Positions 55,985-64,000 of a stretch of 64,000 bases of DNA are shown here, one piece after another. The stretch lies in contig CAIQVH010000030.1 of assembly GCA_903875215.1 (NCBI GenBank), positions 1 through 64,000 of the forward strand. The letters run 5' to 3'. Source of the stretch: an uncultured Anaerolineae bacterium. GTDB taxonomy: Bacteria > Chloroflexota > Anaerolineae > Anaerolineales > Villigracilaceae. The notes below the pieces were generated by a model that searched no databases, was not told the DNA's origin, and saw nothing but the letters and a program-made list of their open reading frames with translations. A program made the position numbers and the translations under genes. How positions within the stretch are numbered: the stretch's first letter is position 1; every line of letters starts with the position of its first letter.

Positions 55985-56404
55985 TTATGATTCCTGTGAT
56001 GGGGGGATTTTTTTGGGGCTGGCTTTGGGCAGGCTGACGACCAGGAAGCCATCTTCGTATTCCGCGCTGGAAGTTTCTTCGTTCACCGGGCCGGGCAGGG
56101 CGACTGTGGTGCTGAATTCTCCAAAGCGAACCTCCATCTGGTGGTAGGCGCGCCGTTCGGGTGTATCGGGCCGCGTGCCTCGGATGGTGAGGAGGCTGTG
56201 TTCGAGCAGTACATTGAAGTCCTGGCGGCGCATCCCCGCGACTTCGACTCGCACGACATATGCAAATTCGTTTTCAAAGAGGTCAGTGGGCGGGCTCCAG
56301 AGATGCGATTGCAGGCGGACCTGCCAGCCCGGAGATTCGATCAGCATTCGCCGTCTTTCAGGCCGGGGGGGCTGATCCTTGGCCCGTAATATTACTGTTG
56401 CCAT
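55985..56404 (-). CDS. Hsp20/alpha-crystallin small heat-shock protein
   Basis: A 139-residue chaperone with an alpha-crystallin domain: [40 protein letters not shown] and [14 protein letters not shown] lies six bases before ATG 56404. It begins the operon with lon and the receiver gene, joining a holdase chaperone to a protease under one promoter. Confidence 0.9.
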
Positions 56405-56421
56405 AGAACACCTCAGTCTTC

Positions 56422-56449
56422 TTATAACCGGTTTGGTCTGACTGACCAA
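56422..56449 (-). promoter_or_regulatory. Promoter and inverted repeat of the Hsp20-Lon operon
   Basis: On the minus strand TTGGTC (56449-56444) and TTATAA (56427-56422) are 16 bases apart. The -35 box is one arm of TTGGTC-N5-GACCAA (56433-56449), a probable operator. It is not the CIRCE element or an HspR site as I know them. Confidence 0.5.
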
Positions 56450-56524
56450 TGGTTTTTTGGGGTGAATTAACAAAAAACCAATCTGCCCATGAAGATATTA
56501 ACACACTTAAAACCGGGGTGCAAG

Positions 56525-58852
56525 TCATCCATTCCAGAATTGGATGTAGACCAGCAGCCCACCCAGCAAGACCAGGAGTGGGTAAACCCAGCGCGCTGTT
56601 TTTATGATCTGGTTGGCGTACGTTTCCTGTTTCTTGTCTATATTCATCTTTATAAGCAGGATGATAATAATCTGTATCACGCATAAGAAGTAGACGATGT
56701 AGAACATCCAGTCCATGGCCGTGGTGTAGCCGATATTGGGTAAAGAATCTGTCAGGCCTAGTTGGAAGAAGGCTGCCGTCAGGATGACACTGGTGACAAT
56801 ATCGTACATTTTCCCGTAATCGCTGGCACTGGAGAAAAAGGCCAGCTGTGCCAGCCCCACCAGGAAAAACAGCGGCAGCAGATTTTTCAGGCTGTATTGC
56901 AAACCCTTGCGGATAATGCCAAATTCAACACTGATCCGCGAGTAGGGGATCGATGTTTCCGTCTCCACAAGATTGGGGTTGCCAAGGGTTGAGTCATTGG
57001 AATAATTATCCTGCTGAATTTTGGCTGAACTGCCCAATTCCCAATTGCCAAGACCATCCACCACCTTTTGCTTATTGAGACGTGCCAGGATATCTCCCTC
57101 GGAGATGCCGCGCATCCCGATCGTATCCGGTACCAGGAGCAACTCCTGAGCATCTTTGAATTTATGTTTGATCTGAAACTTAATGGTCTGCTGGTCAAAG
57201 GGGTAATTTTTATAATCAAAATCGCCTTTGAACCTGGCCTTGACATGATAGGCGCGGTAGGAAATCCCATTTTCAACCGCCTCAACCAAAGGAGATCCAA
57301 AGTCGATCGCATCAACCACTTGCAAAAATTCGAATTGAGCCGGGTCGACAACTTCCCGGGCCCGGAACCAGACATAAAAATCCAGAACATAGGAATTCGT
57401 CTGGATATCCATTTCGCTGATTTTGTTGATATCAACGCCGACATAGACTACATCTGTAATACGGAAAAAGCGATGATCGTACGTAATGACCGGATTCTTG
57501 ACCTGTTTTTGCGCATTCAACCGGTCAGCTGTGGCTTCATCGATTTCGATAATCTGACTGATCGCTGAGATGCGTTTTCCGTTCTGGTAAATGCTCGTAT
57601 CGATAGGTTTGACCGGGTCATGATTGGCATCGAAATAAAGCTTACCAGTTACACCCTCAACCGCTTCCTGCGGGGTGTCAATCGAAGCGAGTGCATCGCG
57701 TAATTTATGGCGATCGTCAACCAGAGCGGTAGGTTCGCCTGAAACCTGGGCTTGCTCCAGGGCGCGGGCTGTAATTTTCAGGGCATCACAATTGGTGGCC
57801 GCCTTCATTCCCGGTTCATTCCCATTATAGGCAGCCTTAAAGTCTTGGAGAAAAGCCTGGCCAGCTTTCCCGGCGGTATCAAAAACCACCGGAGCCAGCA
57901 CATATACGCCGTTTGAATAAAAATTGAGATCCCTTCCGGCTGGGGCTGTGGATTGAAAAGTAGCCAGGAAGTTAAGGTTTGCAAAGGCACTGGGGCCGAA
58001 AGCCAGATTGTTGATACCCGCGTCCCGCATGTGGATCAGCAGGTTGGCTGCTTCGGGAGCGCGCATGACGAATACCAGCACCCCTGGATCGCTCTTTGAA
58101 ATCCCGGATTGGAAATCCAGGTTGGATTGTTTTACCTGCTCCACCGCCGCAAACATTGCCGGTGTCATCCTGTTGTTGTCCAGCCCCTTGCCGATTTCAA
58201 TTGGCCCGGAGATTTCACCTCCCAAATCCTTATAGGTTTCCATAAAGCTCTGAGCAAATTCCTCGGCAAAGGACTCGCCTGTCAACTTGATCAGGGTGAT
58301 ATTTTTCTGGCGTAAAACGTGGAAAATATAATTGGCCATCTGGTGAGACTGGGCCTGACTATTTGGCAGAGCGCGGAAATACCAATTGTTTCCCTTGGTT
58401 ACGCCGACATTGACTGATGAAGCGGTAATGGCCGGAATGCCTTCTGCGCTATATATTTTGCCCATTTCCTGGGAAACATTGGAGAAGGCGTGGCCCACAA
58501 CCAGCATGGTGTGGTTGGTTGCCAGCATCTCATTGACCCGTTGACGGGCCGTATCGATCGAGTTGTCATCATAATAAAAATCGAGATTCAGTTCGTAGTT
58601 TTTGTGCGCTGTATCCCACGCTTTATTAATTTCCTTCTTGCACAGGTTCGCACCGTTTCTGGCGTCAACACTGTCGGCAAATTTTTCAGTGGTCGATCCA
58701 GCGACGAATTCCCGTTCCAGCATCACGGCCAGGTAAATCGGAATCTTGTTTTGGGATTGCACCGGCTGCCAATGCAGGCTTGCGCCGATTATCAGGGTGA
58801 GAATAACGAGGCTGGCTAGAGCCATGGAAATACGACGAGGGGTTATTTTCAT
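56525..58852 (-). CDS. Type-1 periplasmic binding domain fused to a pentameric ligand-gated ion channel
   Basis: A 775-residue protein. Residues 1-25 are a membrane-leading signal; 36-430 form a LivJ-like (Peripla_BP type 1) domain with two lobes; 455-650 form the channel's beta-sandwich with DFYVWFR and the Pro-loop YPFD at 550-553 lacking the animal Cys pair; then M1 (658-674), M2 (681-700), M3 (715-735) and M4 (753-772). Aligning the LP after M2 with GLIC places S688 at 6', the hydrophobic gate L691 at 9', D684 at 2' and K681 at -1'. LPNIGYTTAMD is the standard M2-M3 link. AGGAG precedes the ATG, eight bases after the SulP stop. Confidence 0.9.
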   Translation of the reverse strand: MKITPRRISMALASLVILTLIIGASLHWQPVQSQNKIPIYLAVMLEREFVAGSTTEKFADSVDARNGANLCKKEINKAWDTAHKNYELNLDFYYDDNSIDTARQRVNEMLATNHTMLVVGHAFSNVSQEMGKIYSAEGIPAITASSVNVGVTKGNNWYFRALPNSQAQSHQMANYIFHVLRQKNITLIKLTGESFAEEFAQSFMETYKDLGGEISGPIEIGKGLDNNRMTPAMFAAVEQVKQSNLDFQSGISKSDPGVLVFVMRAPEAANLLIHMRDAGINNLAFGPSAFANLNFLATFQSTAPAGRDLNFYSNGVYVLAPVVFDTAGKAGQAFLQDFKAAYNGNEPGMKAATNCDALKITARALEQAQVSGEPTALVDDRHKLRDALASIDTPQEAVEGVTGKLYFDANHDPVKPIDTSIYQNGKRISAISQIIEIDEATADRLNAQKQVKNPVITYDHRFFRITDVVYVGVDINKISEMDIQTNSYVLDFYVWFRAREVVDPAQFEFLQVVDAIDFGSPLVEAVENGISYRAYHVKARFKGDFDYKNYPFDQQTIKFQIKHKFKDAQELLLVPDTIGMRGISEGDILARLNKQKVVDGLGNWELGSSAKIQQDNYSNDSTLGNPNLVETETSIPYSRISVEFGIIRKGLQYSLKNLLPLFFLVGLAQLAFFSSASDYGKMYDIVTSVILTAAFFQLGLTDSLPNIGYTTAMDWMFYIVYFLCVIQIIIILLIKMNIDKKQETYANQIIKTARWVYPLLVLLGGLLVYIQFWNG

Positions 58853-58860
58853 GGGTGCTC

Positions 58861-61038
58861 CTATTGCAATAAGGCCTGGACGCTGGCTGTGGTGTTTTGT
58901 AAGCGCTGTCCGAGCAATTGAACGATATACCGATGGAATTTGCTCGCCAGGGTAGGCATTTCGTTTTCCATACGCCGAAAAGCATCCGGACTCAATAAAT
59001 ATAACTCACTCGGGATATCTGTTTGTGCCGTTGCACTGGCAACGCCGCCCGTGTATAAACTCATTTCACCCACTGCCGTGCCTGCGCCCATACTGCGCAG
59101 GCGGAACAAAAGTCCGTTTGGCAACTCGCGATAGATGGTGATGCGCCCGCGTTCGACCAGGTACAGGCCAGGCGATTCCTCGCCCTGCTTGATCAGGGAA
59201 TAATTTTCACTCACATCCAACCGTTGCATAAACTCAAAGAGAGCCTTATATTCCTCCGGGTTGAAATAAGCCCCCAGATTTTCCACCAGACTGCGCGAGG
59301 TGACAACCGTCATATCCGATTGGAACAGGATCATTGATTCACACCATTCCACGGCATGATCCATGTTTTCGAAGGAACGCAAGCCATTTTCGTTGATCTG
59401 GAAACCATTCCGGGCCAGTTTCCCCAGAATTTTTTCGCTGATTGATGAGAATACGAGAGAAAACTGATACGTTTTTGCCAGGCGCTGCATTTTAATAAAG
59501 ATCATCGCCGCTGAAGAATCGACCCCGTAAGTCTGGGTAAAATCCAACACCACAAACCGGATCGGTTGACTATCCTCGGCTAAACGGTCTTTGACTTGCT
59601 GGTAGATGAAATGTGCTGTTCCAAAAAAAATGTACCCCTGCAATCGCAGGATGAAAATCTGTTCGCCGCGTTCTTTCAGGTATTGCATGTGCTTCATGGG
59701 GCGGTCAACGTTGCTTTGAAAATTGCGCCCAGTCAAAATGCTGCGGATGGCGCTGGTGTTGCTGTAACTGGCCACAAAGATGATGACCATAAGCACCAAT
59801 CCAAGCAAAATACCGGCAAGTAAATTGACCAGAGTCACAGTCAAGAAAATGGCCAGTACCACCAGATAATCGGTGATTGAAAATTTGAAAAAGCCCTCCA
59901 CCAGCCATTCGTACAGGAAATTAACCCCAAGAGAGATTAACAGGCCCCCAATCACGAAGTTGGGCAGATAAGACAGGTATTGACTCCCGTAGAAAATGGT
60001 GACAGCAAACATGGCGGCCACCACCAGGTTCAACAATCGGCCCGGACGGCCGCGTTTATAGGCCATGATGGTCAGCCCGGCGGATGGATAACCGACGATG
60101 CCACCGCCGGCTAACACTGCCATTAGGTTGGCAAAACCAGCCAGACGCAATTCCCGGTCAGGATCAATGTCTGTGCCAATCGCCATCTCAATGCCATTGA
60201 TGTTCAACAGCATGCTTATCATGGCTGTGAATAGCAAGGTCATGGCGGTTGTGGTGTTGAAGAAGATCACTCTCCATTGCACATTGCCCAGCAGGCTCAA
60301 GGAAGGGAGTTGGAACAAAGTGTGAGTTTTAATTTCTGAAAGTGTTAATAACCAGCCCGCCTGGCGTAAATGATCGACAGATGTGCCGTTAATCAGGTAA
60401 AACAGGGCCACCGCTGCGCTCAGGATGGCAGGCGTGATCCAGGTCTTGGCGCTTTTCTCTTGCATGAAAAACAAGAGCATTCCGAGCAGCAATGCCGGGA
60501 TCCAAAAGGCTAATTTCTCAGGGTTGAGAAGCATCTTTAACGAAAATTCGCCAACGGATACCTTGAATCCGCTGCTCAACAGGAGCCAGCCCAACCCAGC
60601 CAGGAATCCCCCGGAGACCGGATAGGGCATAAAGCGGATGATTATCCCCAGTTTTCGGAATCCTAGAAGGATATAGGCCACTGAAACCATCAATGTGGCT
60701 AGCAGGACGGCCATTAATACCGAGGCAGCTACTACCTCGGGACTTTCTCCCGGGATGAGAATGATCACATTCGAAACCAGCAGTGCAAATACCGGGGTAA
60801 TGGCTGATTGTGGAAAAGCCACCAATCCAGGGATCGAACCGAACAATCCAAACAGCAGTGACAAAACCAGGCCATTGATTAATGCCAGCATCACTCCTCG
60901 GGCTGTATCACCAGCCGCCGAGTAAATTAACACCCCATAGGTGATGGTATTTACCAGCGCAATCAGTCCTACGATCAGCCCAGATGCGATGGAATTGATC
61001 AGCGTGGTTGGTTTAAATTCTGCGAGCAGTTTTTTCAT
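58861..61038 (-). CDS. SulP (SLC26-like) anion transporter with STAS and cyclic-nucleotide-binding domains
   Basis: A 725-residue protein. Residues 10-430 form a UraA-like transporter of about 14 helices (PYPVSGGFLAG, GYPSAGLT, NLLAGILLGL). Residues 450-570 are a STAS domain with VLDFTQTYGVDSSA; 590-715 are a CRP-type nucleotide-binding domain (YSLIKQGEESPGLYLVERG, GEMSLYTGGVASATA). The family moves sulfate, bicarbonate and other anions. Transport could thus be gated by cAMP or a similar ligand. It overlaps the sulfotransferase gene by 26 bases and is followed at eight bases by the channel gene. Confidence 0.92.
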   Translation of the reverse strand: MKKLLAEFKPTTLINSIASGLIVGLIALVNTITYGVLIYSAAGDTARGVMLALINGLVLSLLFGLFGSIPGLVAFPQSAITPVFALLVSNVIILIPGESPEVVAASVLMAVLLATLMVSVAYILLGFRKLGIIIRFMPYPVSGGFLAGLGWLLLSSGFKVSVGEFSLKMLLNPEKLAFWIPALLLGMLLFFMQEKSAKTWITPAILSAAVALFYLINGTSVDHLRQAGWLLTLSEIKTHTLFQLPSLSLLGNVQWRVIFFNTTTAMTLLFTAMISMLLNINGIEMAIGTDIDPDRELRLAGFANLMAVLAGGGIVGYPSAGLTIMAYKRGRPGRLLNLVVAAMFAVTIFYGSQYLSYLPNFVIGGLLISLGVNFLYEWLVEGFFKFSITDYLVVLAIFLTVTLVNLLAGILLGLVLMVIIFVASYSNTSAIRSILTGRNFQSNVDRPMKHMQYLKERGEQIFILRLQGYIFFGTAHFIYQQVKDRLAEDSQPIRFVVLDFTQTYGVDSSAAMIFIKMQRLAKTYQFSLVFSSISEKILGKLARNGFQINENGLRSFENMDHAVEWCESMILFQSDMTVVTSRSLVENLGAYFNPEEYKALFEFMQRLDVSENYSLIKQGEESPGLYLVERGRITIYRELPNGLLFRLRSMGAGTAVGEMSLYTGGVASATAQTDIPSELYLLSPDAFRRMENEMPTLASKFHRYIVQLLGQRLQNTTASVQALLQ

Positions 61039-61891
61039 AATCAGCCATTTTTTGAATGCGGGAATAATTCTCTTTGCGCCAAAAGGCGTATAACTCGTTT
61101 AAGTGCAATGCTTCGACCTGTGTCACCACTTCAGGGGTGCAGCCTGGCAGCGGTTCGGCACCGGCAAAATATTGCAGGTGGGATGCCTGCATAGCGCGCT
61201 CGTGCGCATAGGGTGCATAAAACAATTCATGTTCAACCGGGAAAAAGATGTTCGAACCAGGTTCGGCAAATGCTGGTAATTGATCCCAATCCATGATCGC
61301 TTGAGAAATATAGGGCAGCTTCAATTGTGCGAACATATCCCGAATAGCACTTTCGGGGCCAAAATCACGCACGGCCTCATACACAAATTGCACCACTGGT
61401 AGGCCAGCTTCCACCACTTGCTGGCGAATGGTTTCGATTTGTCGATATGCTGCAACAAAAATATCAAAGCGGGTTTTTTCGCCCCAAACTTTGTACCAGG
61501 AACTCCAGGTTTGCAATGGCTCGCGATAAACCAACATCACCTGGAGTTTCTCCAGGGGGTATCCAATAGTTTTAAAAATTTGAAAGGGATTAAACTCTGC
61601 CTCGAGTTGGGTGTAGGGCCCCAGGGTTTCTTTAATTAGAATGGGGGTGCGGCTGGCTGGGAAAGTCCACTCCCACTCTTTATCCTGCATTGCCCAGCGC
61701 AGGACATTTTTCAGGGGCTGAAAATGTGCCGGTACACCAGAGGCACCGAATACCCGCAATAAGACAGTGGAACCGCTCCGGCAAGGTGAAATTCCCAAAA
61801 TCACCGGGGCTATATTGTCACCATCAATCAGGTGAATACCTTGCACCACCTGTTGGAAATCTACTGGTACACGCTGATACAAGGAAACCAT
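61013..61891 (-). CDS. PAPS-dependent sulfotransferase family protein
   Basis: A 292-residue cytoplasmic protein. The 5'-phosphosulfate loop is SPCRSGST (residues 35-42) and a 3'-phosphate region MLVYREPLQTWSSW appears near 130. It transfers sulfate to an unknown small molecule, lipid or sugar. AGAGGA lies eight bases before ATG 61891, better than the upstream ATG at 61918, which has none. It is the first gene of the operon with the SulP transporter and the channel. Confidence 0.83.
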   Translation of the reverse strand: MVSLYQRVPVDFQQVVQGIHLIDGDNIAPVILGISPCRSGSTVLLRVFGASGVPAHFQPLKNVLRWAMQDKEWEWTFPASRTPILIKETLGPYTQLEAEFNPFQIFKTIGYPLEKLQVMLVYREPLQTWSSWYKVWGEKTRFDIFVAAYRQIETIRQQVVEAGLPVVQFVYEAVRDFGPESAIRDMFAQLKLPYISQAIMDWDQLPAFAEPGSNIFFPVEHELFYAPYAHERAMQASHLQYFAGAEPLPGCTPEVVTQVEALHLNELYAFWRKENYSRIQKMADYEKTARRI

Positions 61892-62000
61892 AAACGCTTC
61901 CTCTTGCAACCTGAGCATTACGGATCAGCAAGAATTACACTATGGATATATAAAAGTACCAATGGGGATTTTCGTGGTTGGCTAAAGTCACGAAATCAGG

Positions 62001-62073
62001 CGCCCCTGGCGGGATTCGAACCCACAACCAACAGCTTAGAAGGCTGCTGCTCTGTCCATTGAGCTACAGGGGC
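62001..62073 (-). tRNA. tRNA-Arg (anticodon TCT)
   Basis: A 73-base cloverleaf: acceptor GCCCCTG/CAGGGGC, D arm GCTC/GAGC, anticodon stem GCAGC/GCTGT with loop CTTCTAA (anticodon TCT), T arm GTGGG/CCCGC with TTCGAAT loop, discriminator G. CCA is not encoded. The 3' end faces the sulfotransferase operon; the 5' end faces the mobile-looking genes. Confidence 0.95.
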
Positions 62074-62200
62074 AATGGAGGGGCTAATGCTTCATTATCA
62101 AGTGTATCGCTGGCAATTCTCTTCACGCGCCGAAATTGGATAGGCTATTGCCCATATCATACCCGCCACAGGCTGAATTTACAAGTGCATTGACTACCGC

Positions 62201-62220
62201 CTAAGATCGTGTTATCTTAG
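62201..62220. repeat. Perfect inverted repeat CTAAGAT-N6-ATCTTAG
   Basis: Seven-base arms around six bases, between the tRNA and the first gene of the element-like cluster. It could be a protein-binding or recombination site. The 62074-62439 stretch otherwise contains no gene that I can support. Confidence 0.4.
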
Positions 62221-62267
62221 CATGTATGTTCTAGATAAGCATGAAGTGAAGAACTCGCATAGGTAGC

Positions 62268-62342
62268 AGGTTAAGCTACAGCCGGGCGCGCTTCATGGTG
62301 TCAAAAAAAACACAAGTCACTCCGTAGAGACGACAGGTTAAG
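62268..62342. repeat. Two direct copies of CAGGTTAAG, 66 bases apart
   Basis: Copies at 62268-62276 and 62334-62342; the first is also inside the inverted repeat GTAGC-AGGTTAA-GCTAC. They lie about 100 bases before the first small gene of the cluster and may be operator or origin-type sites. Confidence 0.3.
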
Positions 62343-62439
62343 TTGACACGAGCGGTGTAGACAGATCAGACGGTGAAAGCCGTTCTCTCTGTTTGCGCCG
62401 CTTTTGTTATTTATCCGCCAAACAGAAAGGATAACCGCT

Positions 62440-62679
62440 ATGAAAAAAAGTGAGAATTTTATAATGCGCCTTACGCCTAGAGACAAGGAAGTGTTCCGGG
62501 AACTTGCCGAACGCTTCGACTGTTCGCAGGCTGAAGTGTTGCGCCGTGCCGCCTACGTTGTGCTGGACGTGCTGAACAAGCCGAACGCCGCTGCGCTTGA
62601 ACTGGAAGCCGAACAGCCTGGCGGTTCTACCGCCGCCGAAGTTGAATACCACTTTGAACAGCCCGCGCTTGCTGGCTGA
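62440..62679 (+). CDS. Small ribbon-helix-helix-like protein
   Basis: A 79-residue basic-acidic protein beginning NFIMRLTPRDKEVFREL, then DCSQAEVLRRAAYVVLD; a beta strand plus two helices with an alternating pattern as in ribbon-helix-helix (CopG/Arc-like) regulators. AAAGG lies nine bases before ATG 62440. No exact family recognised. Likely a regulator of the mobile-looking cluster that follows. Confidence 0.55.
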   Translation: MKKSENFIMRLTPRDKEVFRELAERFDCSQAEVLRRAAYVVLDVLNKPNAAALELEAEQPGGSTAAEVEYHFEQPALAG

Positions 62680-62739
62680 AATTAGTACCGCCTGCGCGAT
62701 CTTCTCAGGGACAAGCGCAGGCGGTTGGAGATAAAAACA

Positions 62740-63138
62740 ATGACTAATTTACTACAATTCCGTCGCAGGGAACAGGTGTTGGGCAAGGTGTTTATAAAAA
62801 AAGTTGTCAGAGAAAAGCACCTGTTCAAGGCCGCGAACGCGTATGCTGTGGACACTGATCAGCTTGAGTATTTTGCCGCCGCAGGCGTGACAGAGATTCA
62901 ATTCCATGAGGATACCGGCACGACTTATAGCACTACACCGGCTGAATTCCGTGTTCATGGCTTTGAGAAGCAGTATCCCGGCTACTCTCGCCAGACTTTT
63001 TTACCGCTTCGCTATTGGAGATCGGCGAACGCCTCGCCAGCGCCAGCCTACAGCGAGCAGAGTGCAACAGACAACCTAACAAGCGAACCGCAGGAAAAAC
63101 AGCTTTTTTTTTCCGGCTGGAATTGGAGGCGAGAATGA
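62740..63138 (+). CDS. Hypothetical protein of the element-like cluster
   Basis: A 132-residue protein of no family that I recognise. It is basic at the N-terminus (FRRREQVLGKVFIKK) and ends in a polar Ser/Gln-rich tail with a nine-T run in the DNA at 63104-63112. GGAG lies nine bases before ATG 62740. The stop overlaps the next start as ATGA. Confidence 0.6.
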   Translation: MTNLLQFRRREQVLGKVFIKKVVREKHLFKAANAYAVDTDQLEYFAAAGVTEIQFHEDTGTTYSTTPAEFRVHGFEKQYPGYSRQTFLPLRYWRSANASPAPAYSEQSATDNLTSEPQEKQLFFSGWNWRRE

Positions 63139-63320
63139 ACTCACCGAGAACGAACGCCGCCAGCTTGAAGCGTGGAAAAAGCGCAAAGCAGAAAGCCGCC
63201 GCCTGGCGCGATTTTGTAAACTTCTGCTCGAAGCGCGGCGTAAAAATAACCAGGGACGCTACAGGCGCATACTGGCGCTTATGGTTAGTGATCAATCAGA
63301 AAGCGCAGGCTGAACTATGA
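63135..63320 (+). CDS. Small basic hypothetical protein
   Basis: A 61-residue basic protein (AAAWRDFVNFCSKRGVKI in the middle). GGAGG lies five bases before ATG 63135 and the gene is joined at both ends by ATGA overlaps, which is why I prefer this frame to another open frame on the same strand across 63080-63313. No family recognised. Confidence 0.5.
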   Translation: MNSPRTNAASLKRGKSAKQKAAAWRDFVNFCSKRGVKITRDATGAYWRLWLVINQKAQAEL

Positions 63321-64000
63321 CGACTGAAGCGTATATCACCAAAGCCGAGAAGGGCAAGCCGAGAGAGTGGCTTAAATTGCACACGAAATATCTTGGAGAA
63401 CCGTCGCTGTTCCGTGTAAGCGACAGGGCGAGGGCGCGGTATTTTATGCTTTACATGGCCGCCGCTGTTCTGGACGGTGACGGCGCAGTCTATGACGGTG
63501 ACGGCGTTCTGCCTGCCGTGTTTGACGATCTCGCCTGGCGGCTGCGTTGTTCCGTTGACGAACTGACTGCGGACTTGCGAGAACTTGCCGCCGCCGGGCT
63601 TGTGGCGCAGGCTGGCGAATTCTGGCGACTTGTCCGCTATACTGAAGAACAAGTCAACATGAAGGAAGTCCGGCAACAAGCCCGGCAACGTGTGACAAAG
63701 TACCGTGACAAGAATAGAGCAGAACAAGAAATAGAAACAGAAAGAGAAAGAGAACAGAGTGTATCTGTTAGTAACGAGAGTGTAACGCGTTACACGGACA
63801 CACCGACAGACACCGCTTCTACTTCTTTTTTGAGTGAATTTACACCTTCTGCTGAGACAGAGAAACTCGTGCAACAGGACGTTACCGACAGAATGGCAAA
63901 ATCTAATTTGAAAGACGACATTCTATCGACATTTGAAGTAAGGCTGAGATACAGCCTTACAGGAAAAGACGCAGAGACATTCGTTGATTTCATTGCAAAG
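63317..64000 (+). CDS. Phage/plasmid replication-initiation-like protein (3'-truncated)
   Basis: 228 codons are visible and the frame is still open at the window edge. Residues 1-120 look like a winged-helix replisome-organizer N-domain (KPREWLKLHTKYLGEPSLFRV-type start, two short strands, DLRELAAAGLV helix). A charged linker with EIETEREREQ follows, as in phage DnaD/replisome organizers, then an acidic Ser/Thr-rich part. GC falls toward its end. It is the strongest sign that the cluster after the tRNA belongs to a phage or integrative element. Confidence 0.6.
   Translation, partial: MTTEAYITKAEKGKPREWLKLHTKYLGEPSLFRVSDRARARYFMLYMAAAVLDGDGAVYDGDGVLPAVFDDLAWRLRCSVDELTADLRELAAAGLVAQAGEFWRLVRYTEEQVNMKEVRQQARQRVTKYRDKNRAEQEIETEREREQSVSVSNESVTRYTDTPTDTASTSFLSEFTPSAETEKLVQQDVTDRMAKSNLKDDILSTFEVRLRYSLTGKDAETFVDFIAK

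Follow-up and report, generated by a model that had tools for sequence, protein, structure and literature searches.

A LivJ-type solute-binding domain fused to a pentameric ligand-gated ion channel in an uncultured Anaerolineae bacterium

Introduction

The natural stimuli of prokaryotic pentameric ligand-gated ion channels (pLGICs) are, to our knowledge, largely unknown, and the channels GLIC, ELIC and sTeLIC carry no extra domain. Here we analyse a stretch of 64,000 nucleotides (the window) from an uncultured Anaerolineae bacterium of the phylum Chloroflexota (assembly GCA_903875215.1, contig CAIQVH010000030.1, positions 1 to 64,000), in which one gene encodes a 775-residue chain that joins a LivJ-type solute-binding domain, or flytrap, to a complete channel of this kind, and we compare it with the closest described systems.

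The architecture as such is already known in alphaproteobacteria, and the window protein is a further member of it: ligand-gated ion channels (LGICs) of Magnetospirillum magnetotacticum and Bradyrhizobium japonicum carry an N-terminal fusion to a type I periplasmic binding protein (PBP-I), for which an allosteric interplay and a preliminary concentration of the ligand have been suggested, and genes for PBP-II proteins adjoin LGIC genes (Tasneem et al., 2004; PMC549065). As in those PBP-I::ART-LGIC proteins, an N-terminal PBP-I is followed by a sandwich and four transmembrane segments in one chain, a likeness of described architecture and not of sequences, but the phylum is different. An earlier note on this DNA, made from the sequence by a model that knew of no study of this exact protein, was right that extra N-terminal domains occur in prokaryotic channels; both PBP-I::LGIC fusions and multi-site allostery are, however, already present in that account. 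The parts of it considered here hold no operon with a SulP gene, no second binding domain in the same chain (their PBP-II is a neighbouring gene) and no MscS pore. No report of the operon, the triple fusion or the MscS version was found in the open-licence literature searched, subscription papers being outside its scope, and the same literature yielded nothing on a pLGIC with Peripla_BP_6, a prokaryotic pLGIC in Chloroflexi or an LGIC/solute-binding protein in Anaerolineae. The terms 'periplasmic', 'fusion' and 'binding protein' do not occur in the portion of PMC4795631 that was covered.

DeCLIC (6v4a, 7q3h) is also a prokaryotic pLGIC with an additional N-terminal domain, made of two lobes, NTD1 and NTD2, which the portion of PMC12664993 considered here likens to calcium-binding domains of other proteins. 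The N-terminal region of the window protein is not of this type, being a Peripla_BP_6 flytrap. With GLIC, ELIC and sTeLIC it shares the core channel fold, the Pro-loop and the pore register, and its binding domain resembles, by sequence profile, the LivJ-type branched-chain amino-acid binding proteins (4gnr, 1z15), although these are not fused to a channel. Ionotropic glutamate receptors, which have a K-channel-type pore inserted in a type-II binding domain, follow a common logic of flytraps on a channel; the window protein has a pLGIC pore instead, and with pore family, subunit number and topology all different the comparison is an analogy only.

Results and discussion

A binding domain and a complete channel in one chain

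The gene is an intact open reading frame (ORF) that runs unbroken from 58852 to 56525 on the minus strand. The earlier note gave the right interval and left the strand unmentioned; a plus-strand reading was rejected, with many stops in frame. All features of the protein lie on the minus strand. A hydrophobic segment detected in a Kyte-Doolittle scan (residues 8-26; 58775..58831) ends 10 residues before the binding-domain match and may be either a cleaved signal peptide or a membrane anchor. It is followed by a LivJ/Peripla_BP_6-type solute-binding domain (residues 36-440; 57533..58747), delimited with Pfam and a family profile, and by the extracellular beta-sandwich of a pLGIC (residues 455-642; 56927..57490), identified by profile comparison with GLIC and by structure matches of a core model. 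The four-helix pore domain, M1-M4 (residues 650-774; 56531..56905), was recognized through Pfam, matches to sequences in the PDB and the same model, and within it the M2 pore helix, from -2' to 20' (G680-D702; 56747..56815), was placed by alignment to the chimeric chain 4yeu and to relatives. The complete channel thus corresponds to residues 455-775. The elements named in the earlier note were all located: the Pro-loop YPFD at residues 550-553 (57194..57205), the M2-M3 link LPNIGYTTAMD at 704-714 and the four helices. Features of the pLGIC superfamily present in the chain are a pore domain homologous to Neur_chan_memb, the extracellular beta-sandwich, the acidic D553 of the Pro-loop and the basic R648 before M1.

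In Pfam searches, Peripla_BP_6 matched residues 63-416 (E 2.1e-22), a homology that places the domain in the LivJ type, and Neur_chan_memb matched residues 659-742 (E 2e-6) narrowly above its cut-off (28.7 bits versus 28.1), so that two of the three profiles proposed in the earlier note found their target; the third, Neur_chan_LBD, is considered below. The nearest solved sequences were LivJ-type 4gnr (E 2.7e-14) and, for the channel, GABA-A chimeras, chimeric 4yeu and GLIC. Profiles built from six proteins (the window protein and five relatives) gave the same picture for both halves: the sandwich profile matched GLIC chains with a best E of 3.2e-7, and the binding-domain profile had 4gnr as its best match (E 6.9e-31), with metabotropic glutamate receptors matched too.

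The structure predictions were of monomers only. An AlphaFold2 (AF2) model of residues 455-775, computed from a three-sequence alignment, had a mean predicted local distance difference test score (pLDDT) of 65.9 and a predicted TM-score (pTM) of 0.54. Compared with the PDB, it matched GLIC (Foldseek E 2e-15, TM-score 0.61), the GABA-A receptor beta3 (Z 18.8, root-mean-square deviation (rmsd) 4.3, 281 aligned) and DeCLIC (Z 18.7, rmsd 4.2, 279 aligned). The fold of this region was the test that the earlier note had set for itself, and it returned a pLGIC; its claim of a LivJ-like domain fused to a complete pLGIC in one 775-residue chain is borne out by Pfam, profiles, fold and relatives alike.

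Coupling elements and proposed mechanism

In an alignment that also took in four plain channels, a Pro-loop of the form [YF]P[FW]D was found in all nine rows with the binding domain and a pLGIC pore (PBP::pLGIC), and YPFD was present in the seven further fused members (7/7). The final Asp was found in none of the four relatives with an MscS pore, described below. An Arg before M1 occurs in 9/9 PBP::pLGIC rows (L060 was read separately), was not seen in three MscS rows and is uncertain in the fourth, L044; the plain pLGIC of the window's own genome has His at this position, so the basic Arg is not universal. That the Pro-loop acid is retained with a pLGIC pore and missing without one speaks for selection on coupling in the window protein.

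What was observed are the domains in their sequence along the chain, the Pro-loop acid, pre-M1 Arg and M2-M3 link as elements of coupling, the residues of the pore and the conservation of gene order. From these observations we think it fairly probable that the gene encodes a homopentameric Pro-loop receptor-channel of the cytoplasmic membrane, with a LivJ-type flytrap on the outer part of each subunit, permeable to cations and opened by an extracellular solute. In such a receptor the pentamer would assemble, a solute from outside, perhaps not a plain alpha-amino acid, would close the flytrap, and its movement would be passed through the linker to the sandwich and from there, through the Pro-loop and the M2-M3 link, to the gate at L9', which would open. 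The resulting flow of cations would alter the membrane potential or the ions, which might support, or signal to, the SulP anion transporter encoded next door.

Regarding the solute, the amino-acid contacts of LivJ, which we take to be S79, T102 and E226, correspond to S124, V147 and S288 in the window protein; two of the three are replaced, and the contact set for an amino acid is not retained. The residues are S, I and S in L001 and L002, the two closest relatives, and S, T and D in L039, L059 and L061. Judged from these three residues, the clade of the window protein may bind a solute other than a plain alpha-amino acid. The two ligand sites with allosteric control suggested in the earlier note are less well supported than the fusion and stay conjectural.

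Distribution of the fusion

Two proteins, L001 and L002, match the window protein end to end (58 and 56% identity) with the same architecture. They come from metagenome-assembled genomes labelled Anaerolineae and Anaerolineales, which are the genomes G765 and G749 of the window's genus, as identical coordinates show. The architecture was also found in L039, L059, L061, G809 and G813. A survey of the class gave matches over most of the chain in 4 of 396 genomes, own included (G000, G280, G351 and G084). With the sandwich profile, 11 of 400 genomes of the phylum were matched, five of them with complete binding domains (G000, G280, G351, G494 and G630) and one cut by the contig end (G481), the rest being plain channels or a fragment. 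In the family, 24/149 genomes were matched, and in 11 the sandwich was fused to a binding domain (contig-cut in G843); the other 13 were counted as non-fused mostly by frame length (<500 residues) and not each by profile, and G459, with a 125-residue frame, was left unresolved. Viral contigs contained no relatives when searched with the six-row and sandwich alignments.

Plain and DeCLIC-sized channels were met in the same genomes and surveys. Beyond the window, some 12 kb away from the fusion gene, lies a plain pLGIC of 348 residues (G000:C30:70662-71708; L035 15663-16709, minus), and the genomes of L001 and L002 have one likewise. Eleven genomes of the class contain pLGICs of DeCLIC-like size (about 630-645 residues, some cut: L010, L013, L014, L015, L018, L019, L022, L023, L025, L028 and L032); Pfam found no N-terminal family in the three proteins of this size that were scanned, L040, L041 and L042.

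A second binding protein, and relatives with MscS pores

In 7 of the 11 fused genomes of the family (G280, G351, G821, G743, G858, G754 and contig-cut G843), the chain does not end with M4 but runs on into another solute-binding protein, of the sugar type. Pfam identified this second protein as SBP_bac_1 in G280 (E 4e-34) and G351 (E 1.8e-31), and a profile built from these two found it in the other five. The corresponding loci are L037 (5922-9836, minus), L038 (7775-11434, plus), L105, L106, L107, L108 and L109. The N-terminal segment of these triple fusions is what we take to be a lipobox, with a lipobox-like Cys in all six that have a complete start (in L037 an internal Met was taken as start).

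Proteins encoded on Azospirillum plasmids align across both the binding domain and the sandwich; at least 80% of the query is covered in 8 of the 27 records that matched. From four records five proteins were obtained, and Pfam was run on four: L043 (5545-8865), L044 (5698-9162), L045 (5866-8949) and L066 (4893-7961). All four combine Peripla_BP_6 with an MscS beta-domain, and L044 also has a C-terminal cyclic-nucleotide-binding (cNMP) domain. On the family profile their sandwiches scored between E 8e-26 and 3e-32, except L044 (1e-14); plain pLGIC sandwiches scored 6e-8 to 3e-19 in the same scan. Two MscS-pored proteins in an annotated record are named ABC transporter substrate-binding protein, and downstream of the second MscS-pored gene of Azospirillum sp. 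B510, with the same orientation, come ABC transporter, HlyD-type and TolC genes (L066 4893-11572 in all).

Phylogenetic trees were calculated separately for the two parts. A 100/99 branch of the binding-domain tree separated all 12 fused domains, with either kind of pore, from 19 stand-alone domains, which were drawn from search hits and not at random; L044 stood apart from the other MscS rows. Duplicates (L003, L006-L008, L047-L052 and the window copy), L046, a near-copy of L043, and contig-cut L060 were left out. From the sandwich tree the same kind of duplicates, L004, L005, L054-L056, L058, L046 and the weak matches L014 and L019 were omitted. In it the PBP::pLGIC rows did not form one clade (3 changes) and two DeCLIC-like rows fell among the fused ones, so this tree shows only the split from plain channels.

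In 10 of the 12 fusions, 5-15 residues separate the end of the N-terminal hydrophobic segment from the start of the binding-domain match (21 in L066, 31 in L044). Since a link of 15 residues spans at most about 50 Angstrom, the flytrap of tethered fusions would have to start near the membrane, and from linker lengths it probably sits beside the sandwich, close to the membrane, in most fusions. L039 and L059 have about 120 residues of soluble sequence ahead of the segment (TPR-like in L059, below the Pfam cut-off), and for this reason the segment there is a helix in the membrane rather than a signal that is cleaved off. The soluble stretch of these two PBP::pLGIC fusions (L039 4932-7517 and L059 5517-8114) probably forms a cytoplasmic domain of the ligand-gated channel.

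Flytrap and sandwich may form a portable sensing cassette, combined with pLGIC pores, with MscS pores in Azospirillum, where the Pro-loop acid expected to touch a pLGIC pore is missing, or with a second binding protein after M4, and with the flytrap mostly tethered to the membrane beside the channel; we hold this to be an even bet. A different division of labour, based on the idea of Tasneem et al. (2004; PMC549065) in the passages considered here, would have the flytrap hold solute near a site in the sandwich, which would do the gating. The intact sandwich and coupling elements agree with such a concentrator, and preliminary ligand concentration was their own suggestion, but the position of the fused binding domains on one side of the 100/99 branch, whatever the pore, fits a coupled pair better, and we regard a mere concentrating role as rather unlikely.

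Conserved gene order

The fusion gene is the last of three on the minus strand. Operon gene 2 (58861..61038) encodes a SulP anion transporter of 725 residues with STAS and cNMP domains, recognized by Pfam, and operon gene 1 (61013..61918) a protein of 301 residues. The latter is called sulfotransferase-like solely for the motif CRSGSTVLL, presumably P-loop-like; no family was assigned to it in Pfam (E 0.01 or curated cut-off), NCBIfam or PDB sequences, and at E 1 a single sub-cut-off match at chance level was obtained. Eight bases separate the SulP gene from the channel gene and operon genes 1 and 2 overlap, a spacing from which alone we infer transcription as a single unit. Scans for promoters (6 found, 7.2 expected) and terminators (15 versus 7.9 expected, standard deviation 3.3) were not used.

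Order and strand of the three genes are the same in the window, L001 and L002, with identities to the window of 57 and 56% for SulP and 55 and 54% for operon gene 1. The operon has other neighbours in the window than in L001 and L002: compared with the window and a further 30 kb, the ORFs outside the operon gave no more than partial matches, to distant genes. L001 and L002 share their flanks, so that the operon has been kept in two genomic settings and not three. Operon gene 1 occurs in 4/396 genomes of the class, own included, one of these being a weak, short match; in the other two genomes its three neighbourhoods (8-11 kb fetched) held neither SulP nor channel. Near the distant relatives L037, L038, L039, L059 and L061, ten ORFs were scanned without a common theme, except for a histone-deacetylase-fold gene near L037 and L038.

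A tRNA-Arg(tct) gene found with ARAGORN (61999..62073, minus) lies just upstream of the operon, and tRNA genes are common insertion sites. The operon region has a guanine-plus-cytosine (GC) content of 48-50%, compared with about 60% at 50-56 kb, and values of 51-57% continue for about 11 kb past the operon. Altogether GC stays at 48-57% over some 17 kb (from window 56000-64000 to about G000:C30:73000), including the operon and the plain pLGIC, and is about 60% in the DNA that flanks this stretch. Because the dip reaches beyond the operon, low GC is a weak sign of transfer.

Pore residues and permeant ion

G680, K681, D684, S688 and L691 align in HMMER with E, A, T, S and I of 4yeu, residues that we take to be -2', -1', 2', 6' and 9' of GLIC, and the register given in the earlier note (K681 -1', D684 2', S688 6', L691 9') agrees. 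K-1', D2', S6' and L9' are identical in the window protein, L001 and L002, and opposite the -2' Glu of GLIC, where the window protein has G680, L001 and L002 have Glu. Acids at 2' and -2' favour cations in pLGICs. With the 2' Asp kept in the three closest members and a -2' Glu in two of them, cation permeation is the better bet for the window channel as predicted from its pore residues. Selectivity, which the earlier note called not obvious for the mixed charge of the pore, thus seems slightly less uncertain.

The SulP gene, an immediate neighbour in the window, L001 and L002, invites another reading, in which the channel would conduct anions and offer the same anion as the transporter a second route. 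K681 at -1' is in line with it, and so are GAR in L059 and GSR in L060 at -2' to 0', a motif that resembles animal anion channels. Opposed to it are the acids in the pore, with an Asp (D684 in the window protein) at 2' in all three closest members and a Glu at -2' in two of them, and the Glu-Arg at -1'/0' of all seven triple fusions, which is a cation-type arrangement; an anion channel is in our view quite improbable. LivJ-type domains normally serve ABC importers, and the flytrap might do so here with the channel as a mere membrane anchor, but the conserved three-gene unit has no ABC permease gene and pore and coupling residues are kept, which leaves this reading highly improbable. That assembly joined a LivJ gene to a pLGIC gene, the artefact raised in the earlier note, has no point in its support and a negligible chance of being true, refuted as it is by independent genomes, with unbroken frames and the same domain order in L001 and L002, at 58 and 56% end to end, and in at least eight others.

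Several observations weigh against the cation-permeable, flytrap-gated receptor and the cassette as set out above. The Lys at -1' lowers the certainty of selectivity, and the residues from -2' to 0' differ elsewhere in the family, as seen in L059 and L060. Neur_chan_LBD gave no match in the window protein at E 0.01 in Pfam. The M2-M3 link of LPxIGY type is absent in L061, and a pattern search for it was negative in G809 and G813, so that it is not general in the family. The full-length AF2 model, from three rows, was poor (pLDDT 50) and used for no claim, and for this reason the placement of the binding domain rests on linker lengths. The sandwich of L044 overlaps the range of plain channels on the family profile. 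None of the operon genes was found in the fetched neighbourhoods of L037, L038, L039, L059 and L061, and the role of the operon may therefore be limited to the window's genus. The SulP cNMP domains of the window, L001 and L002 appear to lack the Arg of the phosphate-binding cassette, which we take to be the residue in touch with the phosphate of the cyclic nucleotide in CRP.

Concluding remarks

Strand, operon, relatives with a second binding protein and MscS relatives were not part of the earlier note. For the window protein, a well-studied flytrap family together with a conserved transporter neighbour gives testable leads to ligand and role. The chains with binding protein, channel and binding protein, and the MscS-pored relatives, are an experiment of nature on the way in which an extracellular sandwich communicates with pores of different kinds, and a prokaryotic counterpart of the flytraps in glutamate receptors. 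If the cassette exists as proposed, a channel with two binding proteins could read two solutes, and bacteria would possess a ligand-gated channel system with interchangeable pores.

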